From a virus, in IMG/VR virus record IMGVR_UViG_3300035704_000009, positions 1 through 60,893 of that record: DNA of 60,893 bases. One strand, written 5' to 3'. The notes beneath the pieces were generated by a model. The model saw nothing but the letters and a program-made list of their open reading frames with translations, was not told the origin of the DNA and did no database searches. Position numbers and translations under genes: made by a program. Positions 1-13,737 of this stretch are shown piece by piece (the first letter of the stretch is position 1; every line of letters begins with the position of its first letter).

Positions 1-170
1 TAGCGCACGGCACCGGAGGTGGCCATGCCGCCAGCACGGAGGACCGCGTCGACGATGAACTCGTTCTGGGTCATGTCCAAGATCAGGGCCGGGATGGTCA
101 GGGGGTCCTTCAGGAGCGCGTCAACGGTTACCCGGGGGCCGTCGAGGCTGGAATATGCGGGTGTGGGCAC
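1..170 (-). CDS. Major capsid protein, N-terminal 56 residues (cut by window edge)
   Basis: The minus strand reads from a GTG at 170 to the window edge without a stop. The peptide contains SLDGPRVTVDALLKDPLTIP and then ALILDMTQNEFIVDAVLRAG. This is the typical start of actinophage major capsid proteins ("LDGPRVTVDxLLKDP...I...D.V.R.GG"), recognised from memory. An AAAAAGGA ribosome-binding site lies about 12 nt upstream. It is last in the visible head operon, as expected after protease, scaffold and decoration genes. It is divergent from the RHH/TnpB pair at 230, whose insertion separates it from the rest of the head operon. Confidence 0.72.
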   Translation of the reverse strand, partial: MPTPAYSSLDGPRVTVDALLKDPLTIPALILDMTQNEFIVDAVLRAGGMATSGAVR

Positions 171-199
171 GGTGCGTACACATCCTTTTTGGGTCGCTC

Positions 200-232
200 A
201 TGCACCCACGGAGGGTGTATGATGGGTACATG
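200..232 (+). promoter_or_regulatory. Leaderless promoter and imperfect operator of RHH/TnpB pair 1
   Basis: A TATGAT -10 box (218-223) ends 6 nt before the ATG at 230, so the transcript would start at or next to the start codon. ATGCACCCA (200-208) and TGGGTACAT (223-231) form an inverted repeat matching at 8 of 9 positions across a 14-nt gap. The layout resembles the perfect repeat at 6877-6908 beside the second RHH gene, which suggests binding by the RHH protein itself. Confidence 0.5.
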
Positions 233-373
233 ACGAAGCACATCTCGCTGCGTGTGCCGGACGAGTTGCTAGCGCGGCTTCAGGCCGCTGCTGGGCGGGA
301 TCGGCGCTCGCTGAACAGCGAGGTTTTGTGGCTGCTGGAGCGCGGGCTAGATCAGGACGAGGCTGGCGAGTGA
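230..373 (+). CDS. Ribbon-helix-helix (Arc/CopG-like) protein paired with TnpB 1
   Basis: This 47-residue protein begins MTKHISLRVPDELLARL and continues with RRSLNSEVLWLLERGL, the beta strand-helix-helix pattern of Arc/CopG repressors. Its stop overlaps the GTG of TnpB 1 by 4 nt (GTGA), so the two are translationally coupled. It is closely similar to the 48-residue protein at 6907 beside TnpB 2 (shared LRVPD and RRSLNS cores). Known role of the fold: a dimeric DNA-binding repressor or antitoxin. Inferred role: repressor of its own operon and of tnpB. Confidence 0.8.
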   Translation: MTKHISLRVPDELLARLQAAAGRDRRSLNSEVLWLLERGLDQDEAGE

Positions 374-1572
374 GCCGGTTCCGCCTCTGCCCGACGCCTG
401 CTCAGGAGGCGATCCTCCGAGAGCACTGCGCGCATGCCCGGTTCGTGTGGAACCTGTGCGTCGAGCAGCAGACGTGGTGGCGCCCGGGCAGGGGCCCCGT
501 ACCCGGCTGGGCGGAGCGAAGCCGGCAGCTCACCGAGGCGAGAGCGGCCGAGCCGTGGCTTGCTGCCGGGAGCGCCATGGTGCAGCAGCAAGCACTGCGG
601 GACTACGGCCAGAGCATGGACATGTTCTATGGCGGTTCGTGCGGCAAGCCGTCATGGAGAAAGGCCAAGCGCAACGAGGGCTTCCGTATCGTGGGCGCAC
701 GCGGAAGCGTGCGGCACTGCTGCTGGGACGTCCGCCGTCTCTCGCGCCATGTCGGCGAGGTCCGTATCCCGAAGGTCGGGTGGGTCCGGTTCCGCTGGAG
801 CCGTGCCGTTCCGGATGCGAGGTCCTACCGGATCACGATGGATCGCGCTGGCCGCTGGCATGTCGCGTTCGCTGCGATCCCAAGCCCTGTCCCGGGTCCC
901 GGAACCGGGGAAGTGGTCGGCGTAGACCGTGGCGTGACTATAAGTGCGGCATTGTCCACGGGAGAAATGCTGACCGCGCCGCGCCTGAGTCCCGCACGAC
1001 AGCGACGGCATATCCGGCTTCAGCGCAGACTGGAGCACGCGAAGCGCGGCTCCAACAGCCGAGCCAAAATCCGTCTGCGCCTCGCAAGATTGCGAACCCG
1101 CGATCGTTGCGCCCGCAGAGACTGGGCCGAGAAGACGAGCACGGACATCGCCCGGCGGTTCGACCTGATCCGGATCGAGGATCTGCATGTTGAAGACATG
1201 ACCAGGAAGTCGGCACCCAGGCCCGACCCTGTTCGGCCAGGGGCCTTTCTCTCAAATCGCGCCAGCGCCAGGGCGGGACTCAACCGTGAGATCCGCGCCA
1301 GCGGCTGGGGCTTGCTCGCGCAACGGCTGGAAGAGAAGGCACCTGGCCGAGTTGAGAAGATCAACCCCGCCTACACGTCACAGACCTGCAATGCCTGCGG
1401 ACACTGCGAACCCGGGAACCGCGAGAGCCAAGCGTTCCTGTGTAAGCACTGCGGGCACACGGATCATGCTGACGTGAATGCGGCTAAGAACATCGCGGCA
1501 GGGCATGCCGTGACTGCGCGGGGAGGCTTCCGGGTTGCCGGGCCGTTGAACCGTGAACCTCGGGCTGCCTAG
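370..1572 (+). CDS. tnpB: TnpB 1, RNA-guided RuvC-like nuclease of an IS200/IS605-type element
   Basis: The protein has 400 residues from GTG 370, chosen because it overlaps the RHH stop and aligns with MSRYRLYP, the start of TnpB 2. All three RuvC acidic residues are present: D186 in VVGVDRG, E270 in IRIEDL and D368 in HADVNAAKN. The zinc ribbon has Cys340/343 and Cys358/361. It is therefore an active-type nuclease, not a degraded TnpB-like repressor. The family cuts DNA guided by an omega RNA encoded at the element's right end. No TnpA transposase is nearby, so it is either a mobilisable relic or a homing-type selfish gene. It points against the head operon it interrupts. Confidence 0.9.
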   Translation: MSRFRLCPTPAQEAILREHCAHARFVWNLCVEQQTWWRPGRGPVPGWAERSRQLTEARAAEPWLAAGSAMVQQQALRDYGQSMDMFYGGSCGKPSWRKAKRNEGFRIVGARGSVRHCCWDVRRLSRHVGEVRIPKVGWVRFRWSRAVPDARSYRITMDRAGRWHVAFAAIPSPVPGPGTGEVVGVDRGVTISAALSTGEMLTAPRLSPARQRRHIRLQRRLEHAKRGSNSRAKIRLRLARLRTRDRCARRDWAEKTSTDIARRFDLIRIEDLHVEDMTRKSAPRPDPVRPGAFLSNRASARAGLNREIRASGWGLLAQRLEEKAPGRVEKINPAYTSQTCNACGHCEPGNRESQAFLCKHCGHTDHADVNAAKNIAAGHAVTARGGFRVAGPLNREPRAA

Positions 1573-1612
1573 CAGCCCGGAATCCTCGGTCATGGCCCGG
1601 GGAGGATGCCAA
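1561..1612 (+). ncRNA. TnpB 1 right end and omega-RNA scaffold
   Basis: Two hairpins follow the tnpB end. CGGGCTGC (1561-1568) pairs with GCAGCCCG (1572-1579) across the stop codon. ATCCTC...GAGGAT then encloses a G/C stem. The 3' end GGAGGATGCCAA closely matches GCGAGGATGTCAA at the end of TnpB 2 (5594-5628). This is the usual right end of IS605-type elements in high-GC bacteria. By family logic the omega-RNA guide would be the roughly 16-20 nt after position 1612, starting AGCTCGCTCG. Confidence 0.6.
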
Positions 1613-1629
1613 AGCTCGCTCGATGGTCC

Positions 1630-1902
1630 TCAGTGTTCCTTGATGGTGACGTCGTAGAACTTCGTCGGATCGAAGGGTGGGTGGCTAATTGACGTGGCCG
1701 GACTGCCGCTGAAAGTAACCCTGACCATTACGGCGACTTGGTAGTCAGAGTTCAGGGCCCCGTACAACCACGTGATGTAGCCACCATCATCAGTAGTCGG
1801 ATCGGCGAGGTTTACGAACGACAAGACATTCCCGCTGGTGCCATCCGGGGCGCTATTGATATTGATGTGGGTGGCCGCAAGCACCACATCTCCGCTGGCC
1901 AT
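1630..1902 (-). CDS. Head-module protein of unknown function, 90 aa
   Basis: This is a beta-rich 90-residue protein without recognised motifs. Its ATG overlaps the stop of the decoration-like gene upstream (TGATG at 1902), so it is translated with it. Its place between decoration and capsid genes suggests a minor head or cement protein. Its 3' end abuts the TnpB 1 right end, so the TnpB element probably landed between this gene and the capsid gene. Confidence 0.6.
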   Translation of the reverse strand: MASGDVVLAATHININSAPDGTSGNVLSFVNLADPTTDDGGYITWLYGALNSDYQVAVMVRVTFSGSPATSISHPPFDPTKFYDVTIKEH

Positions 1903-2369
1903 CAGCCGAAGATGCGGGCTCGGCCCACGACGTTGGTGGCGACGACCACGCCGCCGGGCTGGGTGCAGCGGCCGATGATGGTCTCCGCGAGGGTGTCGGT
2001 GCCGCTGACCCAGGGGGTGACCTTGCCGCTGGCGGCGGACTTCAGGAGCGTCCCGAAGTCGCAGTCGATGGCGTAGGTGACGTGCATGTCGGCGCCGTGG
2101 TAGACGCTGACGTAGTCGGGCAGGACGCTGATGTCCACTAGCGGCTGGCCGTAGCCGGTGGTGTCGCCGGCCTGGTTGGGGATCGGCGCGGCGTCGTTCC
2201 CGGCCACGCCGAGGACGTTGAGCGCGCCGTGGCTGCTGGAACCGGCGCCGGCGACCGAGACCGTGGTGGCCGGGCTGGCGTCCGCGACGACCAGCTGGCC
2301 GCCGAGTACCTGCGCCGAGACCTGGTAGCTATCCGGGCCGTGCTTGACGTGGGGCAGAGAGCCGGGCAT
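1902..2369 (-). CDS. Head decoration / capsid cement-like protein, 155 aa
   Basis: This is a Gly/Ala/Val-rich beta protein beginning MPGSLPHVKHGPDSYQVSAQ. The C-terminal segment, with TLAETIIGRCTQPGGVVV, resembles small capsid-decoration proteins that precede capsid genes in tailed phages. ATG 2369 has AGGACGG upstream. A terminator lies between it and the previous gene. The assignment rests on order (protease, scaffold, this gene, capsid) and composition. Confidence 0.55.
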   Translation of the reverse strand: MPGSLPHVKHGPDSYQVSAQVLGGQLVVADASPATTVSVAGAGSSSHGALNVLGVAGNDAAPIPNQAGDTTGYGQPLVDISVLPDYVSVYHGADMHVTYAIDCDFGTLLKSAASGKVTPWVSGTDTLAETIIGRCTQPGGVVVATNVVGRARIFG

Positions 2370-2400
2370 CGTTCACCGTCCTGTTGCGGGTTTGGGCATG

Positions 2401-2425
2401 AAAAAAGCCCGCCAGGCGGACGGGC
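2401..2425 (-). terminator. Intrinsic terminator inside the head operon (minus strand)
   Basis: Read on the minus strand, GCCCG and CGGGC close a stem with inner CC/GG pairs and a one-base bulge (2407-2425). Six T residues follow (2406-2401). It lies after the 2450-2716 gene and before the decoration gene, so it probably tapers expression or insulates modules rather than ending the operon. Confidence 0.75.
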
Positions 2426-2449
2426 AGGGGTTTGGGATGAGGGGCTGGG

Positions 2450-2716
2450 CTAGTTGCTGGTGCCGACCTGGCCGCCTGTTTCCTGGACGGCGGACAGAGG
2501 CAGCAGGGCGTCCGCGTTGACGGTGGTGATCGCCGTGTACAGTTCCCCGCCGTCGTCCAGGACGATGGGCTGGCCCTTGGGGAACGTGGTGTCCTGCAGC
2601 TGGGTCCAGGTCGCCGGGTCGGTGGACGCGGAGCCGTTGCCGTTCAGGGCGTCCGGGACAGCCGTGCCGGCGGGGACCGTCACGTCAGCGGCGAGGGTGT
2701 AGGCGCCGATCGCCAT
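2450..2716 (-). CDS. Small head protein, possible decoration protein, 88 aa
   Basis: The 88 residues begin MAIGAYTLAADVTVPAGT and look like a compact beta protein. It starts three bases after the protease/scaffold stop without a strong ribosome-binding site, so it is probably translated by coupling. Its place directly after the scaffold is typical of lambda-D-like decoration proteins, but no diagnostic motif is visible. Confidence 0.55.
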   Translation of the reverse strand: MAIGAYTLAADVTVPAGTAVPDALNGNGSASTDPATWTQLQDTTFPKGQPIVLDDGGELYTAITTVNADALLPLSAVQETGGQVGTSN

Positions 2717-2719
2717 GGG

Positions 2720-3397
2720 CTAGAGGCCGTACTTGCCGGAGTGCACGATCTCGTTGACCAGGCCCTGCCGCTCGGCCACGGCGGCGTCCTCGGCGGCCTT
2801 CTCGGCCTCGGCGCTGAAGTCCAGCGGGGTGCCGAGCTCACCGGACAGGTCCAGCATCTTGACCGTCTTGCCGACCTCGGCGAAGACCTTGCGCATGATC
2901 GCGCCGGCGTCCACGGACGAGCCGTTGGCCAGTTCCACGACGTGGCCGTTCCCGCGCAGCAGCGGGCGGGCCAGGTCGGTGATCCGCGGCGGGATGCCGA
3001 ACTCGCGGGACAGGTGGCCGCGCTCCTTCTCGAACGCCGCGTCGTCCAGTGCGGAGGTGACCCGGGCCAGTTCCAGTTCGGTCTGCTCGGCGCGGGCGTT
3101 GGCCAGGTCGATCGCGGCCTGCTGCTCCGACGAGAACGCCGCGCCGGCCGTGGCAGGCACCTTGTCCTCCGCAGCCGGCTCCCCGTCCTCGCCGCCCTCG
3201 TCCTCATCCTCGGGGCCGTCCTCGGCGGGGAGGGAGTCGATGAGGGCCTGCAGTTCCTCGTCGGACAGCTCGTCCTCCGTGGCGCCTTCGGTGCCTTCCG
3301 GCGTGGTCTCGGCGGCGGCGAGGAGCGCGGTGAACTTGTCCTCGTCCAGGTCCAGCAGCCTGCCCAGCCGGGCTTCCTGCTCAGTGGTCAGGGCCAT
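2720..3397 (-). CDS. Nested in-frame scaffold protein, 225 aa
   Basis: Inside the protease gene, codon 205 is ATG (MALTTEQEARLGRLLDLDED). It is preceded by GGAGGAA and a 6-nt spacer, a far better ribosome-binding site than most in this operon. The shared C-terminal half is acidic and helical. This copies the lambda C/Nu3 and Mu I/Z arrangement, in which an internal start yields excess scaffold. The RBS is seen in the sequence; separate production is inferred. Confidence 0.7.
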   Translation of the reverse strand: MALTTEQEARLGRLLDLDEDKFTALLAAAETTPEGTEGATEDELSDEELQALIDSLPAEDGPEDEDEGGEDGEPAAEDKVPATAGAAFSSEQQAAIDLANARAEQTELELARVTSALDDAAFEKERGHLSREFGIPPRITDLARPLLRGNGHVVELANGSSVDAGAIMRKVFAEVGKTVKMLDLSGELGTPLDFSAEAEKAAEDAAVAERQGLVNEIVHSGKYGL

Positions 3398-4009
3398 ATC
3401 GTGTTCCTCCGTTGCGGGAGTGCCGGGGTCGGCTGGTGGTGTGTCCTGCGGTTCCGTCTTGCGGTGCTTCCCGGCCGTGGGACTTTCCGGGGCGGCGTAG
3501 TCGGTGTCGGTGAGGTCCAGGACTTCCCCGTCCTCGTTGGATGCCTCCACGGCCTGCCACGGGCGCATCCCGGTGATGCGGGGGTCCAGGGTGCCGAGGA
3601 CGTGCTGGAGGGCGATCCGGAAGTTCCGGCCGTCCGCGCGGGCATAGTCCTCCACGATCCGGGCCGACACGCCGAGGTGCGGGTTGGAGCGCAGCAGCGC
3701 GTCGCCGTCCTCGGTGGCCGCGACGATCACGTCCAGGCCGTCGTCGGTCATCTCGAGCGCCGCGACCTCGCCGCGGAAGCGCTCCGGGTCGTTGGAGTGG
3801 GAGTTGTCGCCCGGCGCGATCTGGAAGGGCACCTGGTCATAGGCGCGGTCCCGGAATGCCGCGGCCAGTTCGGTGAGGTACTGGCGGTCGAACCGGATCT
3901 TGCGGCCCTTGTAGTCAATGGTGCCTACGGGCAGGAGTTGCTTGCGCCAGATGCGCCGGCCCGCAGGCTGGGCGCTGCCCTTGTCATAGGGGGTCAGGAG
4001 CGCGGTCAT
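2720..4009 (-). CDS. Prohead protease fused to scaffold, 429 aa
   Basis: Residues 1 to about 150 look like a capsid maturation serine protease. They include a histidine segment (GDNSHSNDPERFRGEV), a serine segment (NPHLGVSARIVEDY) and a final LDPRITGMRPW, as in Mu gpI-like proteases. A linker follows. From about residue 205 there is an acidic, Glu/Ala-rich coiled region typical of scaffolds. The ATG overlaps the upstream stop (ATGA). An internal in-frame start at 3397 would make the scaffold alone. The product matures the prohead before DNA packaging. Confidence 0.78.
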   Translation of the reverse strand: MTALLTPYDKGSAQPAGRRIWRKQLLPVGTIDYKGRKIRFDRQYLTELAAAFRDRAYDQVPFQIAPGDNSHSNDPERFRGEVAALEMTDDGLDVIVAATEDGDALLRSNPHLGVSARIVEDYARADGRNFRIALQHVLGTLDPRITGMRPWQAVEASNEDGEVLDLTDTDYAAPESPTAGKHRKTEPQDTPPADPGTPATEEHDMALTTEQEARLGRLLDLDEDKFTALLAAAETTPEGTEGATEDELSDEELQALIDSLPAEDGPEDEDEGGEDGEPAAEDKVPATAGAAFSSEQQAAIDLANARAEQTELELARVTSALDDAAFEKERGHLSREFGIPPRITDLARPLLRGNGHVVELANGSSVDAGAIMRKVFAEVGKTVKMLDLSGELGTPLDFSAEAEKAAEDAAVAERQGLVNEIVHSGKYGL

Positions 4010-5187
4010 GCTGCCGCCTTCTGGTGCATCGCCGCAGCCCGCCTGGCCAGCGCTTCGGCCTGGGCGGGCTTCATGCCCTTGGCGATCAGCTTCTTGTAGA
4101 CGGCCTGGGCGTAGGGGGACAGGCCAGACGGACCGCCGCTGCCGGCTGGCTTCCCGCTTCCCATGGTGGTCACCCGGGGGCCGTCAGAGGATGAGGCATT
4201 CGACGTGACCGGGAGCGACCCGGCGAGGTCCACGGCCTTCCCGTCGTCGTTGCTCGCGGCCACGCCCATCTGCTGGGCGGGTACCATCGCGGTGCCGGAC
4301 TTCGAGCCAGCGGCGAGGCGGTTGTGCACGGCGATCAGCCCGGCCAGCGCACCCTGCTGCGAACCTGACGCGGGGGCCTTGACTCCCGAGGCGTGGGTGC
4401 CCTGGTAGCCGCGTCCCTTCGCGGCCAGGGTGCCGACCTTCATGCCGGTGCTCTTGTGCTGCACGGTGATGGTGCCGGGGCCGGAGCGGCTCATCTGCAC
4501 GTCGGCGGCACCGCGGACCTTCGGCATCCTGCGGGCTGCGGCCATCTCGATCACCTTCCCGTGTTCTGCGGCCAGGCGCGTGGTGGAGGCGCTCGCGAGC
4601 GATGCGCGCTGCGCCCGGGCGACCAGTGCCCGCCCGGCCGGCGTGCCGATGTCGGCTTTGGCGACGGCTGCGGCGCGGCCTTCCCGGGTGGACAGATCCG
4701 GTGCACTGGGGTGCGTGTGGTCAAGGTCGCCGCGCATCCGGTGCTGCTCGGCGTGGCCAGCCTGCAACTGGGCGATCGACGGGCTCTTGGGGCCGACCCG
4801 CCGGCCGCCAGCGGGAACCCCGCTGTGATGCTCGGTCATGTGCTGGACCAGCTGACCCTTGGTGCCCTCGAAGACCCAGCCGTGGCTGTAGCCCTTCGGG
4901 CCGGTCAGCTCGACGGCCGGGCCGTCGTTCGCTGCCTGGAATGCCCAGGTGCCCTTCACGCCCGGCGCGTTCGTGGCCTTGAGCTCCTTGGCCCGCTTGC
5001 GGATCAGCGCGGCGAGGGCCGGGCGCTTGGAGGCGGGAGCGCGGCCGACCGAGCGGATCGCGCGCTTGAGGTAGTCCACGTTGGGGATCGGGAAACTCGG
5101 CGGCGAGCCGGGCGCAGCGGGCAGCGCCTGTCCCATGGCCGCGAGCTTCCTGCGGCCTGCGGCGCGCTGCGGTGGCGGTGTCTTCAC
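4006..5187 (-). CDS. Head-associated protein of unknown function, 393 aa
   Basis: Start GTG 5187 is preceded by GGGAGG and a 7-nt spacer. The in-frame extension to 5586 is only the antisense of the + gene at 5221. An early segment, FPIPNVDYLKRAIRSVGRAP followed by LIRKRAKEL, is a motif often seen in actinophage head proteins (recalled, not searched). The rest is Ala/Gly/Ser-rich and ends in a basic helix (GMKPAQAEALARRAAAMH). It overlaps the protease start by 4 nt. A structural or internal head role is inferred from order. Confidence 0.6.
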   Translation of the reverse strand: MKTPPPQRAAGRRKLAAMGQALPAAPGSPPSFPIPNVDYLKRAIRSVGRAPASKRPALAALIRKRAKELKATNAPGVKGTWAFQAANDGPAVELTGPKGYSHGWVFEGTKGQLVQHMTEHHSGVPAGGRRVGPKSPSIAQLQAGHAEQHRMRGDLDHTHPSAPDLSTREGRAAAVAKADIGTPAGRALVARAQRASLASASTTRLAAEHGKVIEMAAARRMPKVRGAADVQMSRSGPGTITVQHKSTGMKVGTLAAKGRGYQGTHASGVKAPASGSQQGALAGLIAVHNRLAAGSKSGTAMVPAQQMGVAASNDDGKAVDLAGSLPVTSNASSSDGPRVTTMGSGKPAGSGGPSGLSPYAQAVYKKLIAKGMKPAQAEALARRAAAMHQKAAA

Positions 5188-5220
5188 TGCCCTGCCTCCC
5201 TGAGCCCTATCATCTGGCTT

Positions 5221-5487
5221 ATGCGGGAACGTCAGCGCCTCATGGTCAGCAGGCAGCACGGAGTCACTGCGCACACCGAGATCATTGATGATGACGCCGG
5301 CTTCGCGCAGCGGGCACGTGAGCTGAAAGACTGCGTGCCACCCGGCTTTGGTCCCGTCACGGGCCGGTTCATCGCTGTCACCTGCAACGGCTGCGGCGCT
5401 TCGGAGCGCCTGGACTTTGACCAGCCACAACTGCCCGGCAACTGGATCACGCGCGATTCCGGAGAGTTCTGTCCTGCCTGCCAGTGA
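5221..5487 (+). CDS. Counter-oriented Cys-rich small protein (moron-like), 88 aa
   Basis: An 88-residue protein with CNGCG and FCPAC near its C-terminus, a likely zinc ribbon. A TATCAT -10 box (5208-5213) ends 7 nt before the ATG, so the mRNA would be leaderless. It lies on the strand opposite to the flanking head genes and is divergent from the 5187 start by 33 bp, which fits a moron expressed independently from a lysogen. Function unknown. Confidence 0.65.
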   Translation: MRERQRLMVSRQHGVTAHTEIIDDDAGFAQRARELKDCVPPGFGPVTGRFIAVTCNGCGASERLDFDQPQLPGNWITRDSGEFCPACQ

Positions 5488-5593
5488 AGACCGGGGGTTA
5501 GGACGCCACTGCCAGCCGGTCACCCCGCGCCCAGGAGTATCCGGGCGGTGGAAGGGTCGTAGCCCGCACCTGCGGTCTGCGCTCACCCATCGC

Positions 5594-5628
5594 TTGACAT
5601 CCTCGCCAACCCTAAGGACGGCGATTCC
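5594..5628 (-). ncRNA. TnpB 2 right end and omega-RNA scaffold
   Basis: On the minus strand downstream of TnpB 2, GGAATCGCCG...GGCGAGGATGTCAA forms a hairpin. It matches the TnpB 1 end at 1579-1612 in both sequence and position after tnpB. The element probably ends at TCAA (5594). The guide would start GCGATGGGTGAGC, running into 5593 and below. Positions 5488-5593 hold no gene and read as host-element flank. Confidence 0.6.
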
Positions 5629-5636
5629 TGGTGTGC

Positions 5637-6878
5637 TTATGCAGCACTTTCCAGAGGTTCACGGACGCTCGGTGTCGCCCCTCCGGCATGCCCTGCCGCG
5701 ATGTTGATACTGGCGTTGAGATCCGCGTTGCAGGTGAAGCCACAGTTGGTGCAGACAAACTCGGCTTGGCTCTTGCGCGAGTTCTTGTCGATCCAACCGC
5801 AGCCGCTGCAACGCAGGCTGGTGTAGGCGGCCCTGACCTTCTCCACCCGGCCCGGCGCTTTGTCCTCGGTGCGCCGGGCCAGCATTCCCCAGCCCTGCGC
5901 AAGGATGGCCCGGGTTAGCCCGGATTTCTGCGCAACGTTCTTGCCTGGCCGCTGAATGGTGCCCTTGGCGCTGGCCGTCATGTTCACGATCCGCAGATCT
6001 TCAAAGCGGATCACATCAAATCGGCGGGCCAGTCCCGTGGAAGTCTTCTCTACCCAGTCCTTGCGGATGTCAGCGCTGCGGGCATGCAGCCGGCCAAGCT
6101 TGGCGTACTCGGCGGCCTTTGCCGGGGAATCCTTCGGCGCTCGCGCCGCACGCTGCTCGGCTTTCCGCAGCGCGGCTTCCTGCTGCACCGGGAGGCCGGG
6201 GCAGTGCAGGGTCTCGCCCGTTGATAGTGCGGCAGTGATTGCTATACCCCGGTCGATGCCTACGACCTCGCCCGTGCCGGGGCCTGGGATCGGTGCCGGA
6301 ATAACAGCGAAGCCCACGTGCCAGCGCCCGGACCGGTCCAGGGTTACCCGGAAGGACTTGCACTCAGGGACGGTGCGGGACCAGCGGAACCGGACCCAGC
6401 CGACCTTGGGGATCTTCACCTGGCCCCATCGGCGGTTGAGGCGCCGGGCATCCCAACTACAGCCCCCGCCGGGACCGCGCCTGCCCGTAATCCGGAAGCC
6501 TTCGTTCCGGTACTTCTTCCGGCGGCCGGGGTAGCCGTGCGTGCCAGCCAGAAAGTACCGGAAGGACTGCTCGAAATCCCGCAACGCCTGCTGCTGGACG
6601 TTCACCGAGCCTGCGGCTAGCCACTCAAACTCGGCACGCGCTTCGGTCAGCATCCGGCACTGTTCCATGAGTCCCGGTAGCGGGACGGTCGGACGCCGTT
6701 TCTGGTGAATGCAGGTGTTCCCGTCCCGATCCGTGCGACGGGAGGCGTTGCCGTAGGTTTCCAGTCGGCCGAAGTCATGCAGACTGGCGGCTAGGTTCCA
6801 TATGTACCGCGCATGCGCACAGTGCTGCCGCAGGATTGCCTCCTGCGGCACTGTCGGATACAGCCGGTACCTGGACAT
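5637..6878 (-). CDS. tnpB: TnpB 2, RNA-guided RuvC-like nuclease
   Basis: 413 residues, a clear relative of TnpB 1 (shared PQEAILRQHCAHAR and PKVGWVRFRWSR). RuvC residues D209 (VVGIDRG), E293 (IRFEDL) and D386 (CNADLNAS) are intact, as is the zinc ribbon with Cys357/360 and Cys376/379. A TAGAAT -10 (6890-6885) ends 6 nt before the ATG, so this mRNA would be leaderless. It is divergent from its RHH partner at 6907 through one shared operator. It shares the head operon's strand but has its own promoter. Confidence 0.9.
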   Translation of the reverse strand: MSRYRLYPTVPQEAILRQHCAHARYIWNLAASLHDFGRLETYGNASRRTDRDGNTCIHQKRRPTVPLPGLMEQCRMLTEARAEFEWLAAGSVNVQQQALRDFEQSFRYFLAGTHGYPGRRKKYRNEGFRITGRRGPGGGCSWDARRLNRRWGQVKIPKVGWVRFRWSRTVPECKSFRVTLDRSGRWHVGFAVIPAPIPGPGTGEVVGIDRGIAITAALSTGETLHCPGLPVQQEAALRKAEQRAARAPKDSPAKAAEYAKLGRLHARSADIRKDWVEKTSTGLARRFDVIRFEDLRIVNMTASAKGTIQRPGKNVAQKSGLTRAILAQGWGMLARRTEDKAPGRVEKVRAAYTSLRCSGCGWIDKNSRKSQAEFVCTNCGFTCNADLNASINIAAGHAGGATPSVREPLESAA

Positions 6879-6908
6879 GGGACCATTCTAGCGCAATTAT
6901 GGTCCCAT
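6877..6908. promoter_or_regulatory. Divergent leaderless promoters within a perfect inverted repeat
   Basis: ATGGGACCAT (6877-6886) and ATGGTCCCAT (6899-6908) are exact inverted repeats with a 12-nt spacer. Each arm covers the start codon of one gene: TnpB 2 on the minus strand and RHH 2 on the plus strand. Between them lie minus -10 TAGAAT (6890-6885) and plus -10 AATTAT (6895-6900), each followed by GGTCCC-ATG. One bound RHH dimer or tetramer would silence both genes. Confidence 0.72.
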
Positions 6909-7053
6909 GAAGCACGTCAACCTGCGTGTCCCCGACGACATCCACGCCGTGCTTGTGGCTGCCGCTGAGGCCGAACGCCGCTCGCTCAACAGCATGGTCA
7001 TCATCATGATCGAAGAAGCACTCCAACGCAGAGCGGATCACGCACAGGACTAG
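6907..7053 (+). CDS. Ribbon-helix-helix protein paired with TnpB 2
   Basis: A 48-residue Arc/CopG-like protein, MKHVNLRVPDDIHAVLVAAA then RRSLNSMVIIMIEEAL. It is a sister of the protein at 230. Here it is divergent from tnpB rather than upstream in the same operon, yet still adjacent. A leaderless start is inferred from AATTAT six bases upstream. Its 3' end overlaps the convergent head gene by 4 nt. It is too short for default gene calling and easily missed. Confidence 0.78.
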   Translation: MKHVNLRVPDDIHAVLVAAAEAERRSLNSMVIIMIEEALQRRADHAQD

Positions 7054-8621
7054 AGCGCAGCCACGGCGAGACGGTCTGCGGTGGTCCATTCAAAGCCAGG
7101 CGGGGGCAGTATGACTGATCGCATCGCCGCCCGTTGTGGGGCATCCATCGCGTTCACCGCCCGTGCGGCTTCCTCTGGCGTGTCGTGGCGGGTCAGGGAG
7201 GTCCGGGCGTGGAACTGGCCCCCCTCGCGCTTGCCGGGCGGGACACGCTCGGTGAGGGCCTCAGCGAACGCCATCTCGAGGAACCGTGTGCCGTCATCGC
7301 CGCCAGCCGCGAGCTTGATCGCCGCTGCCTGCTGGTCCAGCCCGGCCGCGTGGGCTTTCAGGGTCACCACCCGGGCCCGCAGCGTCTTGCGGGTAGCGCG
7401 CATCTGGGAGATCGTGGCCGTCTTCTTCGCCGCGGTCGCCGTGGTGCTCGCCGCGGTCGTGGTGGCCGCAGTCGTGGTGGCCGTGGTGCCCGCTGCGGTG
7501 GTCGTGGTGGTAGCAGCGGCAGGAGCGGTAGCGGCAGCCTTGACCGCAGTGGACGCCTTGGCGGTCGCGGACTTCTTGTTCGCCGCCGCTGCCTTCTGTG
7601 CCGCCGCCGCCTTGACTGCCGAGTGGATCGACGCGGTGAGGCTCGCGATCCGGGCGTTGATCGCCTTCGCCTTCGCCCGGTCGCCGGCGGCCTGCTTCAG
7701 GAGCCCGGCGCGCTTCTGGAGGGCCTGCTGGCGGGTCGCGGGCTTCGGGACTGGCTTGCCGGTCATCTTCGGCGAGGTCTTGGCGGGCTGCTTGGCTTTG
7801 GCGGGCTGCTTCGCTTTGGCGGGGGTCTTGGCCTTAGCCGGGGTCTTCGCGGCGGTCTTCGGTGGCGCGGCCTTGCTGGTGGCAGCCTTGCCGGCCGGGG
7901 CTTTCGCGGCAGCCTTCTTCGGGGCCGCCTTCTTTGCCGTGCTGGCTTTCGCGGTTTTTGCCGTGCTGGCCTTCCCGGTGCTCCCCGAGGAACTGGAGCC
8001 GCTGCCCTTCTTGGCGAACTGGCCGCCCGCGGAACTCCCGGCCGCGACATGCGGGTGCAGGGAGTCGGACGCGCCGCCGGTCGGCTGCTGCTTCCCGCCG
8101 CCGCCCTTGCCGCTGCTCTTCGCCCTCGGGCCGGTCGCACCCGTGGCGATGTTCACCTGCGCGGCGGTGGCCGGCTTCGCCGTCGCGGCTGGCTTGGCGC
8201 TCCTGGTGCCGCCTCCGCCACCGGGTGCCACCAGTGCCAGCTCCAGCCAGGAGCGGGCCATGGCCTCGCCGAGGTCACTGGACAGGTCCACGCCGTCACC
8301 GCCCTGGTTTGAGTGAGCATGAGCGCGGGCCTTCGCGGCTTCCCATTCGGCGAGAGCACGGGTGGCTGCGGCCTGGACATCCGGGTGGACGCGCTTGCCG
8401 TGCCCGGCGTCACCGGCCGCCCAGCGGCGGATTATGCCTACCGCCATCTCGATGGCAGTGCTCTCGTCCTTGGCGCTGCCGCTCCGCTGGAGAGCGTGCG
8501 CGACGTTCTGTATGTAGGCGGGCAACTGGAGGCCCTTGACCCGGAACAGGCCAGGGCCGGACGGGCTGCCGAACGGGTGATGCACCGTGGAGGCGGTCGC
8601 CGTCTGCGCGGTCAGGTCCAT
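7050..8621 (-). CDS. Ala/Lys/Thr-rich head-associated protein, 523 aa
   Basis: ATG 8621 overlaps the ParB-like stop (TGATG). Residues 10-110 are folded (LFRVKGLQLPAYIQNVAHAL, HPDVQAAATRALAEWEAAKA), as in actinophage head-maturation proteins. The middle is low complexity: PAKAK repeats like a histone H1 tail, then Thr/Ala runs. HPHVAAGSSAGGQFAKKG and VPPGKREGGQFHART carry a "GGQF" motif common in phage head proteins. It may be an internal DNA-condensing or scaffold-like virion protein. Function is inferred from composition and position only. Confidence 0.6.
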   Translation of the reverse strand: MDLTAQTATASTVHHPFGSPSGPGLFRVKGLQLPAYIQNVAHALQRSGSAKDESTAIEMAVGIIRRWAAGDAGHGKRVHPDVQAAATRALAEWEAAKARAHAHSNQGGDGVDLSSDLGEAMARSWLELALVAPGGGGGTRSAKPAATAKPATAAQVNIATGATGPRAKSSGKGGGGKQQPTGGASDSLHPHVAAGSSAGGQFAKKGSGSSSSGSTGKASTAKTAKASTAKKAAPKKAAAKAPAGKAATSKAAPPKTAAKTPAKAKTPAKAKQPAKAKQPAKTSPKMTGKPVPKPATRQQALQKRAGLLKQAAGDRAKAKAINARIASLTASIHSAVKAAAAQKAAAANKKSATAKASTAVKAAATAPAAATTTTTAAGTTATTTAATTTAASTTATAAKKTATISQMRATRKTLRARVVTLKAHAAGLDQQAAAIKLAAGGDDGTRFLEMAFAEALTERVPPGKREGGQFHARTSLTRHDTPEEAARAVNAMDAPQRAAMRSVILPPPGFEWTTADRLAVAAL

Positions 8622-9055
8622 CAGCCCGCCTGCCTGCTGTGCACCTGGTCCCACGGGCCGTTCGCCGTCTTCGCGGTGCCCACCCATGCCGTCACCGGCT
8701 GGCCGAGCGCCTGGCAGGCCAGGGCGCGGGTGTGACCGTCAACCAGGCGCAGGAGCTTCGTGCCGGGCCTGCGTACCGCGACCACGGGCTTGCGGGTGCC
8801 CGAGCGGATCCGGGCCACGAACGCGGCGATCTTCGGCTTGTCCTTCGCCGCGAGTGCCCAGTTCGGGTCGGCAGCGCTGCGGTCGATCTGGCCGAGGGGC
8901 ACCAGCACCGGGCCCGGTGTCCAGGTCAGGTCGTCCACCCAGGCAAGGGCGCCTGGCGGGTAGTCGCGGGCCAGCTGGAGCTTCACTTCCTGCGCCGTGG
9001 TCAGCTTCCCCGGCGTGGCCAGCGCGGCGTGCGGATCCGAGACGCCTGCGGCCAT
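8621..9055 (-). CDS. ParB/sulfiredoxin-like domain protein, 144 aa
   Basis: Start ATG 9055 was chosen because GGGGCGGTGAC precedes it and it lies inside a longer open frame. The C-terminal half has KPVVAVRRPGTKLLRLVDGH followed by TRALACQALGQPVTAWVG, which matches the ParB N-domain pattern (G-H-R-x-x-A...G). In actinophage head operons such proteins often sit by the Mu-F protein. Possible roles are nuclease, DNA binding or NTP-dependent loading. None can be fixed from the sequence. Confidence 0.6.
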   Translation of the reverse strand: MAAGVSDPHAALATPGKLTTAQEVKLQLARDYPPGALAWVDDLTWTPGPVLVPLGQIDRSAADPNWALAAKDKPKIAAFVARIRSGTRKPVVAVRRPGTKLLRLVDGHTRALACQALGQPVTAWVGTAKTANGPWDQVHSRQAG

Positions 9056-9084
9056 GTCACCGCCCCGGCGTAGCATGCGTGGGC

Positions 9085-9417
9085 GTGACGGAGCACACAA
9101 GCGCAAGACTCGCGCGGGCGCTGTCCGCGATCCCCGGCGTGCCCCGCGAGATGATCAGGCGGGCGGTCGACGGTCACTACGACGACTACCTGAGCGAGTT
9201 CACGTTCCCGCTGATGGCGCTGGTGCGGGACCTGTCCGCGCTCGCCGCGATACCAGCCACGCCACGGGACTCCCGGCCGCTGCTGCGTGACCTCATCCGG
9301 CAGGTCAAGGCCGGGGAGTTCCGAGGCAGCAACGAGGAGGCGCGAGCGTGGATGGCGTCACCGGAGGGGCTGGAGACGATGCGCGAGATGGCGGCGGGCG
9401 AACTGCCAGCCGGCTAG
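9085..9417 (+). CDS. Counter-oriented small protein (moron-like), 110 aa
   Basis: GTG 9085 lies 8 nt after TAGCAT (9071-9076), so a leaderless transcript is likely. The protein is helical (SARLARALSAIPGVPREMIRR; SNEEARAWMASPEG) with no known motif. The promoter overlaps the start of the divergent ParB-like gene. Its 3' end overlaps the convergent gene at 9414 by 4 nt. Function unknown. Confidence 0.6.
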   Translation: MTEHTSARLARALSAIPGVPREMIRRAVDGHYDDYLSEFTFPLMALVRDLSALAAIPATPRDSRPLLRDLIRQVKAGEFRGSNEEARAWMASPEGLETMREMAAGELPAG

Positions 9418-9731
9418 GACTCCTGGCGGGTCCGGTCGATGACGTCCTCCACCAGATCCAGCGCCTGGACGAGGCCGTGCAGCCGCTCATGGTCGGCGGC
9501 GATCAGCAGCTCCGACCGCTCGCGCCCCACGAGGCGGAACGGCTTGCCGTCATGCAGCCACCGGCCGCCGTCGTAGCGGCTCGCCCCGCAGGTGCAGCGC
9601 TCTGCGAACGAGCCCTCGGGCAGGTAGCCGGACATCGCGGTGCGGTGACGGCGCAGGAGGCAGCGGATCACATCACGCGGGCCGCGTGGCTGATAGGCGA
9701 AATACTCACCGTCGATGCCATCCACCAGCAC
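9414..9731 (-). CDS. Small protein between head genes, 105 aa
   Basis: GTG 9731 begins 7 nt after the head morphogenesis stop. The protein has a CTCG pair, a conserved-looking middle (RYDGGRWLHDGKPFRLVGRE) and a helical end rich in charged residues (ALDLVEDVIDRT). It is probably co-transcribed with head genes. Function unknown. Confidence 0.5.
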   Translation of the reverse strand: MLVDGIDGEYFAYQPRGPRDVIRCLLRRHRTAMSGYLPEGSFAERCTCGASRYDGGRWLHDGKPFRLVGRERSELLIAADHERLHGLVQALDLVEDVIDRTRQES

Positions 9732-9738
9732 AGGGTAA

Positions 9739-10383
9739 CTACGGCAGCACAGGAGCGCCAGGGTGCGGCGGGCCCGGGAAACAGCGGCAGTTGGGGTGCG
9801 TGGTGCCGGGGTAGCCGATCTTCGGCGGACGGTCCGCGTAAAAGGACTTCCCGTCCGCTGTCCGGCACTCCGGCGTACATCTCGGGTCGATCACGGCATT
9901 CCACGAGAGCAACGGCCCGTGCATGGCCGCCGCGCCGTCAACCGCTGCCGCTGCGGCCATCCTCTGCTGCCCGGCGGCCACGTGTGCATTGAACCAGCGC
10001 CGCTCATCCCCGAGTGCGTCCAGTGCCGCCTGCGTGACCGGCTGGCCCTGGGAGCGTGCCGCGACGACGGCCTGCTGCACACGCTTCGCCGCCGCCAGGA
10101 AGAAGCTCGCCCTCCTGGTGAGATTGGCCCTCACGGCCCATCGCGTGGCGGGGCCGGTCCCTTCCATCACCTCGTGCGGCCAGGAGGCTACGAGGGACGC
10201 CACGGCGGCAAGAGCGGCACCTGAGATGCCAGCGGCCTTGAACGGGGCGCGGAGGGCCGCCGTGAGAGCCTTCGCGGTGTAGTACGCGGCAAGCGCAGCG
10301 ATTATCAGCTCAATGAGCTGATAATCGGCAGGTCGTTGCTGGGGCGGAACGGCCTGCTGCTGAGGTGCCGCCTGTACTGGCAA
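9739..10383 (-). CDS. Mu-F-like head morphogenesis protein, 214 aa
   Basis: Start is TTG 10383, supported by GGAGGTG seven bases upstream. The C-terminus has the signature of phage minor head (SPP1 gp7/Mu gpF) proteins: DPRCTPECRTADGKSF...GYPGTTHPNCRCFP. The family usually follows the portal gene and enters the prohead. Here the TnpB 3 element separates it from the portal. A decayed second N-terminus lies beyond that element (11780-11884). A 29-bp palindrome sits in codons 19-28. Confidence 0.75.
   Translation of the reverse strand: MPVQAAPQQQAVPPQQRPADYQLIELIIAALAAYYTAKALTAALRAPFKAAGISGAALAAVASLVASWPHEVMEGTGPATRWAVRANLTRRASFFLAAAKRVQQAVVAARSQGQPVTQAALDALGDERRWFNAHVAAGQQRMAAAAAVDGAAAMHGPLLSWNAVIDPRCTPECRTADGKSFYADRPPKIGYPGTTHPNCRCFPGPPHPGAPVLP
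10299..10327. repeat. 29-bp palindrome inside the head morphogenesis gene
   Basis: CGATTATCAGCTCA (10299-10312) and TGAGCTGATAATCG (10314-10327) are exact inverted repeats around one base. The tract is AT-rich in a very GC-rich gene, encodes the DYQLIELII segment, and lies about 115 bp beyond the TnpB 3 stop. It could be a transposon-end hairpin, a protein-binding site or an mRNA hairpin near the gene start. Confidence 0.8.
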
Positions 10384-10443
10384 ACAGGCACCTCCGAATG
10401 AGAGCCCCGTTCAAGGTGACTCCGCCGTCTAGGGGACAGCTTC
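10384..10443 (-). other. TnpB 3 right-end region
   Basis: This short stretch after tnpB reads on the minus strand CTGTCCCCTAGACGGCGGAG, then TCACCTTGAACGGGG. It carries the ribosome-binding site GGAGGTG of the following head gene. It differs from the right ends of TnpB 1 and 2, so this is another subfamily. The exact boundary cannot be set from one sequence. Confidence 0.45.
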
Positions 10444-11679
10444 TCAGGCGGCTTCCGCTGCCTGAAGGGCCAGCCCGGCCCTGAGAATGTTGATTGCCGC
10501 GTTCACGTCGGCGTGGGCCTCGTGCCCGCACCCGAGACAGCAAAAAGCCCCCCCATCGCGATTCTCCTCGGCGATATGCCCGCACCGGGCGCACCGCTGC
10601 GAGGTGAAGGCGGGGTTCACTGCGATGATCATCCGGGCAGCTTCTTCCGCTTTCTCGGCGAGGACTCGCAGGAACACCCCCCATCCCGCGTCGAGAATCG
10701 ATCTGTTAAGCCCCGATTTGGCCGCCGCACCGTTCGGCTCCCACGAGCCGTCTTCCGCCGGACGCGGCCTCGGGCGGCGGGTCATGTTCGTGACTTGGAG
10801 TGCCTCATGCGCTACAACGTCGTTCTCGCGGACGAGGCGGAGTGCGGTCTTATGGGCGTGGTCCAAGCGCTGTCGGCGGATCTTGGTATGCAGACGGGAA
10901 ACCTTCATCGCAGCGACGCGGTGTTTGCGCGTCCGATCTTGTGCCCTGCGCTGAGGGAATCCCGCTAGGGACTGCTGTGCCGCCGCAAGTTTGTCTGCCG
11001 TTGCTGCGCCGTACCTTGGGTTGGGGACGTGCTTCCCGGTCGAGGTAGACAGGAAGTGCGTCACGCCCATATCGATGCCAACCACCGCGCCCGTGGCCGG
11101 GAGCGGCTCGGCGGGAACGTCGTCGCACGCCAGGATCACGTACCAGCGATTGCCCTCGCGCTTGGCGGTGATGGTCTTCACGCGCCCCTTCACGGTCCGG
11201 TGCTGGTGGACCCGGACGTGGCCGATGCCGAGGAAGCGGACGCGCGTCACGGTTGGGTGCGGGACAGAATCCCAGCAGGCACCGGCCTTTACAGCGGCCC
11301 ACTCCAGCGAATCGAACCGGCCTCGGCTCTTGAATCGTGGATACCCGGATCGCTCTCCGGCCTTTATGCGGCGGAAGAACGCCGCAAATGCCCAGTCAAG
11401 ACGGCGGATGGCGGCGCGCTCACAGGCGAAGGCCCATCGGCCGACACCGTTTGGGTCGGCCAGGCGGATCTCCTGAAGCTGAGCATCCTGGCTGTAGAAG
11501 GTGACCTGGCGATGGCCCATCCGCCACGCCTCCCGCCGCTCCTCAAGGGCGGCGTTGTACAACTGCCTCGTGTCCTCCAGGCACGCCTCAAGTGCAGTGA
11601 CCTGCTTAGAGGTCGGCCGCAGGAGGAACTTGTATGCTCGGAACATCTGCACCGGGTGTTGGTAGTCGGTGTGGGTCAC
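10444..11679 (-). CDS. tnpB: TnpB 3, RNA-guided RuvC-like nuclease of a different subfamily
   Basis: 411 residues from GTG 11679. An ATG twelve codons in (11646) giving MFRAYKFLLRPT is an equally likely start by family length. RuvC residues are D203 (VVGIDMG), E292 (VVAHEAL) and D391 (HADVNAAINI). The zinc ribbon has Cys363/366 and Cys381/384. It has no RHH partner and no TnpA. It sits between the portal and head morphogenesis genes on their strand. Confidence 0.9.
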   Translation of the reverse strand: MTHTDYQHPVQMFRAYKFLLRPTSKQVTALEACLEDTRQLYNAALEERREAWRMGHRQVTFYSQDAQLQEIRLADPNGVGRWAFACERAAIRRLDWAFAAFFRRIKAGERSGYPRFKSRGRFDSLEWAAVKAGACWDSVPHPTVTRVRFLGIGHVRVHQHRTVKGRVKTITAKREGNRWYVILACDDVPAEPLPATGAVVGIDMGVTHFLSTSTGKHVPNPRYGAATADKLAAAQQSLAGFPQRRAQDRTRKHRVAAMKVSRLHTKIRRQRLDHAHKTALRLVRENDVVAHEALQVTNMTRRPRPRPAEDGSWEPNGAAAKSGLNRSILDAGWGVFLRVLAEKAEEAARMIIAVNPAFTSQRCARCGHIAEENRDGGAFCCLGCGHEAHADVNAAINILRAGLALQAAEAA

Positions 11680-11779
11680 CGGCCCCGGACGTTCGCCCGT
11701 CGCGGGGCCACTTCTGGAAAAGCTTACCCGGTCAGTGCCGACAGCTGCCCGTATGACACCCCTGCATGCCCCCTGTTTT

Positions 11780-11884
11780 TCACGCCCCGTGTGAGGGCCT
11801 GGGCGGTGAAGTACGCGCCGAGGGCGGCGAGGATGGCGGCTGCCGCTGGGGCTGCTGTGGTGGTGCCTGGGTGGCAGTTGGCAT
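11780..11884 (-). pseudogene. Decayed N-terminal copy of the head morphogenesis gene
   Basis: ATG 11884 follows GAGGTGACCTG, a good ribosome-binding site, and opens MPTATQAPPQQPQ. The true frame is then lost. One frame over reads AILAALGAYFTAQALTRG, matching IIAALAAYYTAKALTAAL in the intact protein at 10383. This is the 5' end of a homologous head gene, broken by a frameshift and by the TnpB 3 element. It shows that the element disrupted, or recombined at, this gene. Confidence 0.62.
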
Positions 11885-11914
11885 CAGGTCACCTCGCGGC
11901 TAGCGTCAGAGCCA
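11878..11914 (+). promoter_or_regulatory. Strong leaderless promoter of the 11914 moron
   Basis: TTGGCA (11878-11883), a 17-nt spacer and TAGCGT (11901-11906) form a near-consensus housekeeping promoter. The ATG follows 7 nt after the -10 box. The -35 region overlaps the start of the divergent decayed head gene. Confidence 0.75.
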
Positions 11915-12201
11915 TGACCACGGCCACGCCGCTTGAAGATCCGGCTTACCAGCCCCGGTACCCACCCGCTGGCGGGCTGCCGCCGGACGTCGTGGCCAAG
12001 TGGGGCCCGCGCAGCCAGGTCCGGTGGTTCGACCGCTATCGCGGGCAACTGCGGCGCGCGCCGTCTGCCTTCTGGGACCGCTTCTACTGCACCACGACCG
12101 CGCATCGCGGGAACTGCTGCACCAGTTGCGAGAGCGACTGGCTCATGGGCTACGCGGAAGACATGGAAAGGTGCTGCTGCCGGGCCTACCCGGAGGAATA
12201 G
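11914..12201 (+). CDS. Counter-oriented Cys-rich small protein (moron-like), 95 aa
   Basis: The protein contains CCTSCESDW and RCCCRAYPEE near the C-terminus, a likely metal site. The ATG is leaderless behind TTGGCA-N17-TAGCGT. Its stop is 3 bp from the convergent portal stop. The clear promoter and opposite strand suggest expression when head genes are silent. Function unknown. Confidence 0.7.
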   Translation: MTTATPLEDPAYQPRYPPAGGLPPDVVAKWGPRSQVRWFDRYRGQLRRAPSAFWDRFYCTTTAHRGNCCTSCESDWLMGYAEDMERCCCRAYPEE

Positions 12202-12204
12202 CAC

Positions 12205-13737
12205 CTAGGCCTTCGGGACACCCTGGATAGGCACGCTGAACGGCTCGTTGATGTCCTCCGGCAGCGGTGCCTTCGACCCGCGCACCAGAGCCTGCTGCGC
12301 GACCTTCGCCGCCGCGTTCACCCCGCCGGCGAGGTGGCCGAGCTGCGCCGCTGCCTTCGGCGGCATCCCCGGCGGTGCCTGCGCGGTGGCCTGCGCCTCG
12401 CGGTCCTTCGCGCCCTGCTGCACGATCGCCGCCACCGCGTCGACGTCCAGGTCCAGCACCGTCGCCAGCCGTTCGGTGATCAGGTCCAGGATCGCGGGCG
12501 GCACCTGCAGGGATGGCGCGACGGCGAGGGACTGGAACAAGCCCACCAGCGACGCCTGGCTCTCATCGGTCAGGGCGCCGAACTTGAACGTGGGGAAGCT
12601 CGCGCCCGGGCCGAAGTTCAGCGTCACCAGGGGGGCGATGACGTCGTGGGTGATCGTCTCGGCGATCTCCTGGCTGATGGCCTGCCGGGACTTGAGGAAG
12701 AACGCGCTCTGGTCCTGGGACAGCGCCAGCGAGCCGCGGCCGAGAGAGGCGAGGGAGGCGAGGCCGGTGAACCCGGCCAGGACGCTCCCCGTCTGCCACG
12801 TCTCGAGGAAGCTGAGGGCGTCGGCGAACTGCCCGGCACCCTTGCCGTCGCTGGCCAGGACCTCGAAGGTCTTGGCCCCGGCCGGGTCGCGGGCGAAGCC
12901 CACCACGCCGGAGGACCGCAGCGAGGCGATGTCGTCAGCCTTCGCGTTGGCCTCGCGCTGGTCCTGGCCGTACACGATGACCTTGGGGAGGCTCTGGGAT
13001 TCCAGGAACTGATACCACAAAAAAATTAGCTTGGTCTTCGTGCGGTACGCCCAGTGGCACAGTTCCAACTCGGACGTGCCGGTCAGCGGCTGGCGGTGCT
13101 TCCCGTTGATGTGGATCAGCGAACGGATACGGCTCACATCCACGTAACCGGGCAGTTTGCTCTGCTTCTGCTGGGCGAGTTGGGCACCCCACAACCAGGT
13201 TTGCTGGCGGAACCCGGTGATCGCGCCGTTCTTCGGGTCGCGCTTCAGTTCGCAGGTCGCGGCGGGGCGGAACGCCAGCTTGTCGTAAACGATCTTGCCG
13301 TCATCCCGGATCGTGAAGACTTTTTCATGGAACGATTTGCGGTAGATCTGGGCACCCGTTACCTGGCCGACCACTTCCGACATGGGCGTCTTCATGCCGC
13401 CCGAGGTGTGCGGGTCCATCAGCACCGAGTTGCAGAACTCCGCCTCGCCCTTGTCGCCCTTCGCCGGCTCGATCGCGCGGGCCGCCTGCCGGATGGGCAG
13501 GGTCAGGACGGCTTCCAGGGCAGCGGCTTGTCCATCCCTCTCGATCATGACCTGGAAGTCCCGGGAAGTGACCTGGCCATAGTCGAACACCGAGCCATCG
13601 GTGCCGAACAGGCCGAACATGCGGTTGCCCAGAAGATCGAACTCGGACCCGATCTCCGCGCCGAGCAGTTGCTTCCGTGTCGCTGGCTTCAGGTCGGGGA
13701 AGGCGACGATCCGGGCGGTCTGCGGGTCAGGAGCCAC
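12205..13737 (-). CDS. Phage portal protein, DUF935/Mu gp29-like, 510 aa
   Basis: Start GTG 13737 with GGAGG about 11 nt upstream. The length and layout fit DUF935 portals: an N-terminal region with LPIRQAARAIEP, a central TWLWGAQLAQ and LCHWAYRTKTKLIFLWYQFL, then SKIVYGQ-like and QEIAETITHDVIAPLVTLNF segments, and a long Ala-rich tail. The portal dodecamer is the DNA gate of the head and binds terminase. It sits downstream of terminase and upstream of the Mu-F protein, as expected. Confidence 0.82.
   Translation of the reverse strand: MAPDPQTARIVAFPDLKPATRKQLLGAEIGSEFDLLGNRMFGLFGTDGSVFDYGQVTSRDFQVMIERDGQAAALEAVLTLPIRQAARAIEPAKGDKGEAEFCNSVLMDPHTSGGMKTPMSEVVGQVTGAQIYRKSFHEKVFTIRDDGKIVYDKLAFRPAATCELKRDPKNGAITGFRQQTWLWGAQLAQQKQSKLPGYVDVSRIRSLIHINGKHRQPLTGTSELELCHWAYRTKTKLIFLWYQFLESQSLPKVIVYGQDQREANAKADDIASLRSSGVVGFARDPAGAKTFEVLASDGKGAGQFADALSFLETWQTGSVLAGFTGLASLASLGRGSLALSQDQSAFFLKSRQAISQEIAETITHDVIAPLVTLNFGPGASFPTFKFGALTDESQASLVGLFQSLAVAPSLQVPPAILDLITERLATVLDLDVDAVAAIVQQGAKDREAQATAQAPPGMPPKAAAQLGHLAGGVNAAAKVAQQALVRGSKAPLPEDINEPFSVPIQGVPKA

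Follow-up and report, generated by a model that had tools for sequence, protein, structure and literature searches.

Ribbon-helix-helix genes paired with TnpB in an actinobacterial phage and across Actinobacteria: a probable element-borne autorepressor of an RNA-guided nuclease

Why should a gene for the RNA-guided endonuclease TnpB have a gene for a small ribbon-helix-helix (RHH) protein as its neighbor? The question is raised by the virus record IMGVR_UViG_3300035704_000009, 60,893 bases of an actinobacterial phage (the window), in which two tnpB genes each adjoin an rhh gene. A previous sequence-only reading of this DNA noticed the two pairs, one in tandem with a 4-nt overlap and the other divergent, both lacking TnpA, and proposed that each is a functional unit of repressor plus RNA-guided nuclease. 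All four frames were confirmed (Table 1). The rhh1 stop and the tnpB1 start overlap in the 4-nt sequence GTGA, and the start codons of tnpB2 and rhh2 are separated by 28 nt. RHH1 and RHH2 score 26.8 and 27.5 bits, respectively, against Pfam Arc (PF03869; curated cut-off 20.4), and all of the TnpBs pass the cut-off of NCBIfam NF040570, 'RNA-guided endonuclease TnpB'. The Y1 TnpA (HuH transposase) that would mark an autonomous IS200/IS605 element was found nowhere in the 60.9-kb record. As set out below, we think it highly probable that the RHH protein is a dedicated autorepressor, carried by the TnpB element and acting on its own gene and on that of an active TnpB; that is, the nuclease very probably has its own built-in off-switch.

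The pairing is general across many actinobacterial TnpB elements. The sequence-only reading had staked its proposal on RHH partners being found beside other members of this TnpB clade, and such partners were found. In a reverse survey, an RHH profile was run over 691 genomes (392 + 299) of Streptomycetales and Streptosporangiales. Fifty-one of the 53 matches of at least 50 bits adjoin tnpB, all of them head-to-head divergent, as do 18/18 of those of at least 70 bits; below 45 bits, tnpB is adjacent in only 9/25. The partners span at least three TnpB groups, 24–64% identical to TnpB1/2, and the paired TnpBs include groups 24–35% identical that lie outside the profile seed. In a forward survey, relatives of TnpB1 and TnpB2 were collected from viral contigs and genomes, and their flanks were scanned with the RHH profile. 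The outcome was bimodal, with intact RHH-positive loci at 54–90 bits and no notable match in the remainder except for two decayed copies. These two are divergent RHH remnants adjoining TnpB in loci L055 and L072 (39 and 18 bits), which suggests repeated loss of the partner. On a tree of 70 TnpBs the RHH label changes 8 times, versus 13.9 in shuffles: RHH is present in 7/8 of the TnpB2 clade, patchy around TnpB1, and absent from a large branch of mostly Frankia-type genomes. The claim of two arrangements thus holds in this phage, while in the sample divergence is the rule; among all loci the tandem, same-strand order was found in pair 1 alone, where it is probably derived. The divergent layout can also be seen in annotated records: in Streptomyces NBC_00564 an Arc family protein stands beside a 'transposase', in Streptomyces NBC_01689 a YlcI/YnfO family protein stands beside TnpB, and the layout recurs on Thermobispora bispora plasmids. 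A search of plasmids with RHH2 gave no match; other RHHs did give plasmid matches. The pairing is easily missed, the RHH gene being annotated, where it is annotated at all, only as 'Arc family DNA-binding protein' or 'YlcI/YnfO family protein'.

The RHH gene moves with tnpB. Two copies in one genome (L056 and L074) are 95.5% identical over 1377–2865 (1489 bp) and unrelated beyond, and the shared stretch comprises left end, RHH, tnpB and right end. Since these boundaries enclose both genes, RHH lies inside the mobile unit. The RHH coding sequences are also under purifying selection, with a median ratio of nonsynonymous to synonymous substitution rates of 0.41 and a ratio below 1 for 37 of the 40 pairs that are closest; some of these pairs have in common loci that entered the set twice.

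The RHH proteins resemble phage repressors. The AlphaFold2 model of RHH2 (mean confidence, pLDDT, of 90) is wholly an RHH fold, with helices at 10–22 and 27–47; the strand, which forms only in the dimer, falls outside this model. The best Foldseek match is the Arc-operator complex 1par (TM-score 0.79), and 3qoq is also matched (TM-score 0.82–0.89); the small size of the protein keeps the E-values weak (0.02). By sequence, Mnt is the best PDB match (1mnt, E 1.2e-6) and Arc the next. The DNA-contact pattern, H-x-N-x-R, is that of Mnt, at positions that we take to be H6/N8/R10 in Mnt and Q9/N11/R13 in Arc. Many of the RHHs are minimal and Arc-sized, at 47–55 residues. After the RHH core, a C-terminal peptide like TPDRPGGDPAT recurs (L097, L115, L116, L120, L122, L142, L144 and others), and an alternative tail, ERRSAQEA, is found in L009, L114 and L119; such peptides could reflect a peptide motif or a DNA-level constraint of the left end.

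The promoters are where the two genes meet. A TAnnnT -10 box lies 6–7 nt before the tnpB start in 22/23 loci and is absent at upstream control positions; it is found at the same position in 36/40 RHH-less relatives. This position is as expected for leaderless transcription, and both tnpB and rhh are apparently leaderless. For tnpB2 the box is TAGAAT, 6 nt before the ATG. The exception is tnpB1, which is second in its operon, and there rhh1 has the box (TATGAT, 218–223, 6 nt before the ATG). At RHH-positive loci an inverted repeat over the promoter runs from one start codon into the other. The site at 6877–6908 that the sequence-only reading had singled out for a binding test is, in its true extent, the 34 nt of 6876–6909, an inverted repeat. 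The window contains the symmetric core of this repeat, CATNNNNCCAT-N12-ATGGNNNNATG, a single time, and 0/100 shuffles contain it. The predicted RHH1 operator has the same 12-nt spacing. Between elements the arms vary (GGGACCAT, GGTCCCAT, GCCGTCAT, GACGGCAT, GATGTTAT and others), with the symmetry often kept: arms match at 9/11 positions or better in 21/63 elements, versus 8.7% when arms are paired across different elements. Further, the arm at the tnpB start is significantly palindromic in 5/14 RHH-positive loci versus 2/40 RHH-negative relatives.

Protein and site also covary. After removal of backbone similarity, the three predicted contact residues (the equivalents of Arc Q9/N11/R13) predict arm sequence, with a partial rank correlation of 0.26 that was reached in 0/2000 permutations. 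In L169 and L173, for example, unlike RHH backbones both carry K-T-R at the contact positions, and both elements have GCCGTCA arms. Operator symmetry together with residue covariation is the pattern that would be left by an autorepressor closing both promoters.

The paired TnpBs are predicted to be catalytically competent, omega-RNA-guided nucleases, and our high confidence in the autorepressor is given jointly with that prediction. In the alignment, the RuvC D-E-D residues are present in 56/58 TnpBs, including both window proteins. The 3' structure of the omega-RNA, in an alignment of 18, has 16 consensus pairs, 11 of them with compensatory change, and the right end, GGAATCCCC-hairpin-GGGGAGGATGTCAA, is kept in both window copies. 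Given these intact residues and omega-RNA ends, the window TnpBs are not dead, TldR-like proteins. An Rfam scan of 1–12500 returned no family. Exact 20-mer matches to the tnpB1 and tnpB2 guides were absent from IMG/VR, and therefore no direct empty site or target was found.

Table 1. Positions of the paired genes and associated features in the window
Feature	Position	Strand	Description	Details
rhh1 (RHH1)	230–373	+	47-residue Arc/Mnt-like ribbon-helix-helix protein, first in tandem pair	ATG 230, TGA 373
tnpB1	370–1572	+	RNA-guided endonuclease TnpB	GTG start at 370; NF040570 205.7 bits; RuvC D-E-D intact
rhh2 (RHH2)	6907–7053	+	48-residue Arc/Mnt-like ribbon-helix-helix protein	ATG 6907, TAG 7053; divergent from tnpB2
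tnpB2	5637–6878	-	RNA-guided endonuclease TnpB	ATG at 6878; NF040570 192.9 bits; D-E-D intact
Predicted RHH2 operator	6876–6909		CATGGGACCAT-N12-ATGGTCCCATG, 34 nt	Perfect 11-bp inverted repeat; spans both start codons and tnpB2 -10 box
Predicted RHH1 operator	199–232		CATGCACCCAC-N12-ATGGGTACATG	9/11 complementary; covers rhh1 -10 box and start codon
tnpB1 omega-RNA (reRNA) 3' end	1488–1612	+	Ends GGGGAGGATGCCAA	Aligns with 17 relatives
tnpB2 omega-RNA 3' end	5594–5718	-	Ends GGCGAGGATGTCAA	
Predicted guide, tnpB1 omega-RNA	1613–1636	+	AGCTCGCTCGATGGTCCTCAGTGT	Placed after conserved right-end CAA; enters 3' end of phage gene 1630–1902
Predicted guide, tnpB2 omega-RNA	5570–5593	-	GCGATGGGTGAGCGCAGACCGCAG	Within second copy of upstream phage gene tail
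Second, diverged gene X C-terminal tail	5498–5593	-	AMGERRPQVRATTLPPPGYSWARGDRLAVAS* (asterisk, stop)	On right-end side of tnpB2 unit

These observations suggest how such a unit would work. RHH dimers would bind both arms of the palindrome, which overlaps the start codons and -10 boxes of the two genes, and would shut off tnpB and rhh together, while TnpB would stay a competent omega-RNA-guided nuclease. On entry into an element-free cell or phage, where there is no repressor, a burst of TnpB and omega-RNA would follow; the nuclease would cut element-free alleles, favoring copying or retention of the element, and RHH would then build up and limit a toxic or wasteful activity. In pair 1 the unit would have been rearranged to an rhh-tnpB operon with a single RHH-controlled promoter, the operator being kept upstream of rhh1. 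The proposal that the pair is a functional unit is well supported by recurrent pairing, co-mobility, purifying selection on RHH, the start-codon palindrome and residue-operator covariation.

Several points weigh against the autorepressor. RHH is dispensable, since many TnpBs of the same clade have none (44/59). The close RHH relatives are ascertained, because RHHs adjoining TnpB served as the seed of the profile. A clean full palindrome is found at only about one third of RHH-positive loci, and the arms contain the trivial CAT/ATG of the start codons, for which the cross-element null controls. As for the two phage copies, the left-end hairpin that is present in chromosomal relatives is not recognizable beside either, though the right end is present in both, and their mobility is therefore doubtful.

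Might the RHH protein act on TnpB itself, like an antitoxin, as the sequence-only reading's comparison with a toxin-antitoxin pair would imply, binding the nuclease or its complex with omega-RNA and inhibiting cleavage besides repressing transcription? A small RHH protein tightly linked to a potentially toxic nuclease invites the idea, and the RHH antitoxins CopASO, TacA and KacA are among the Foldseek matches. We regard it as improbable: the RHHs are little more than a DNA-binding core, no extra toxin-binding domain was seen in the RHH2 model, and the best matches, Arc and Mnt, are pure repressors. Moreover, that the same type of RHH accompanies TnpBs only about 25–35% identical to TnpB1/2 is easier to explain by action at a promoter than by protein contact. 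Slightly less probable still is a role at the DNA ends, with RHH binding them or controlling a TnpA in trans and its promoter position being incidental. RHH does lie within the mobile unit near the left end, and Y1 TnpA genes are found elsewhere in several of the genomes; but the symmetric site and the residue covariation are at the promoter, and RHH-less relatives keep both ends without a symmetric site. The phage, too, lacks TnpA, and its copies keep the operator despite an unrecognizable left end.

The RHH1 operator lies immediately 5' of the gene for the major head protein, which could mean that the phage RHHs were recruited for phage genes, TnpB being a passenger, and an RHH-TnpB pair on a Thermobispora plasmid likewise stands beside a major capsid gene. 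This seems very unlikely, given that the capsid side of the operator has no -10 box at the leaderless position and that the pairing is general in chromosomes and plasmids where no capsid gene is adjacent. That the pairs arose by chance is barely worth entertaining: each genome does hold many RHH-like candidates, but the survey refutes the idea, nearly all strong matches being TnpB-adjacent in one relative orientation, and two copies share exact mobile boundaries. Autorepression by RHH is accordingly the reading we prefer.

Both units lie among head genes of the phage, and no near relative of the record's first 25 kb was found among sequenced phages. The capsid gene starts 29 nt from the RHH1 operator, and the operator arm on the side where a divergent tnpB would lie points toward the capsid gene instead. 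Like pair 1, the pair of the Thermobispora bispora ZC4 plasmid (L200, 2986–4664) directly adjoins a major capsid gene of phage type, and head genes may be a favored site for RHH-TnpB units. A third TnpB (10444–11679, - strand), about 30% identical to TnpB1/2, has no RHH partner; it adjoins a head morphogenesis gene (9739–10383), so that three TnpBs lie within about 12 kb of head genes.

Pair 2 lies between a gene that we call X (7050–8687) and the next gene. In L187 these two genes are contiguous, fused in one frame, and in L188 and L191 no TnpB lies between them; the tail sequence of the X relatives in the three is not the same. Downstream of the right end of the tnpB2 unit lies a second tail, whose local alignment with the tail of gene X scores 82, a level reached in 0/20000 shuffles. 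The first base of this displaced tail is also the first base of the tnpB2 guide, and the guide matches only the first bases of the present, diverged tail of gene X. Homologous diverged tails of gene X thus flank the unit, at 5498–5593 and 7050–7160 (both - strand), as if a 3' end of foreign origin had been used to repair the interrupted gene. It appears that the tnpB2 element inserted into the tail of X. This layout, together with the unrecognizable left-end hairpin, would suit an immobilized unit resembling a homing endonuclease, but no target or empty site was found. A short frame (5221–5487, + strand; MRERQRLMVSRQHG...CNGCGASERL...CPACQ) runs counter to the head genes, on the other strand, in the interval from the displaced tail to the head gene that follows, and has no PHROG match. 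A bolder reading, which we offer tentatively and consider rather less probable than not, is that TnpB elements which regulate themselves form a widespread and so far unnamed class in Actinobacteria and in phages of these bacteria, the co-mobilized RHH repressor letting an active TnpB fire only on entry into a naive genome (zygotic induction). The two units here would then serve as homing cassettes, regulated and guided by RNA, that lie between structural genes; the guide would match the displaced tail, and the gene would have been repaired by a diverged tail without a match to the guide.

The sequence-only reading knew of no description of TnpB with a dedicated RHH partner. That stands for TnpB in the open-access literature searched, in which no description of the pairing was found; key TnpB surveys fall outside this literature, and the claim of novelty is bounded by that. 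The same arrangement has been published for Cas12k of the type V-K CRISPR-associated transposons (CASTs), in which 22 Arc_1 and 11 Arc_2 RHH genes, encoding 53–72 residues, lie upstream of cas12k in reverse orientation (PMC9938897). The same work reports that the transcripts of cas12k and of the MerR-type cvkR are leaderless, and that the promoter region which the two genes share contains a palindromic site for repression by CvkR (PMC9938897). Arc_1 and Arc_2 are the closest precedent, being small Arc-like RHHs divergent from a TnpB-derived effector. There, however, the effector is the Cas12k of CRISPR-guided, Tn7-like elements of cyanobacteria; the TnpB described here is guided by omega-RNA, has its catalytic residues intact, and belongs to small TnpB-only elements found in Actinobacteria and in a phage. 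In sequence, in fold and, for Mnt, in the H-x-N-x-R contact pattern, the nearest proteins are the P22 repressors Mnt and Arc. These two control immunity genes of the phage, while the RHHs described here sit on a nuclease unit derived from a transposon. The elements themselves resemble the IS1341 type, the TnpB-only members of the IS200/IS605 family, in having TnpB, a left-end hairpin (in chromosomal relatives) and a right-end omega-RNA ending at a conserved CAA, and in lacking TnpA; they differ in also carrying an RHH gene, IS1341 being described as encoding TnpB only (PMC9956272). TldR proteins are likewise phage-borne TnpB relatives; they are described as nuclease-dead repressors of prophages that have lost the catalytic residues and themselves repress by RNA guidance (compare PMC13418256). 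In the window TnpBs, by contrast, D-E-D is intact, and repression is proposed for a distinct protein.

Free TnpB nuclease must be costly. An element-borne repressor that has operators which can be read, and that follows a residue-to-operator code, makes the control of TnpB expression directly testable and offers ready-made switches for TnpB tools. The RHH pairing also connects TnpB elements with the regulated V-K CASTs and suggests that Arc-type repressors have been repeatedly recruited by TnpB-derived effectors.

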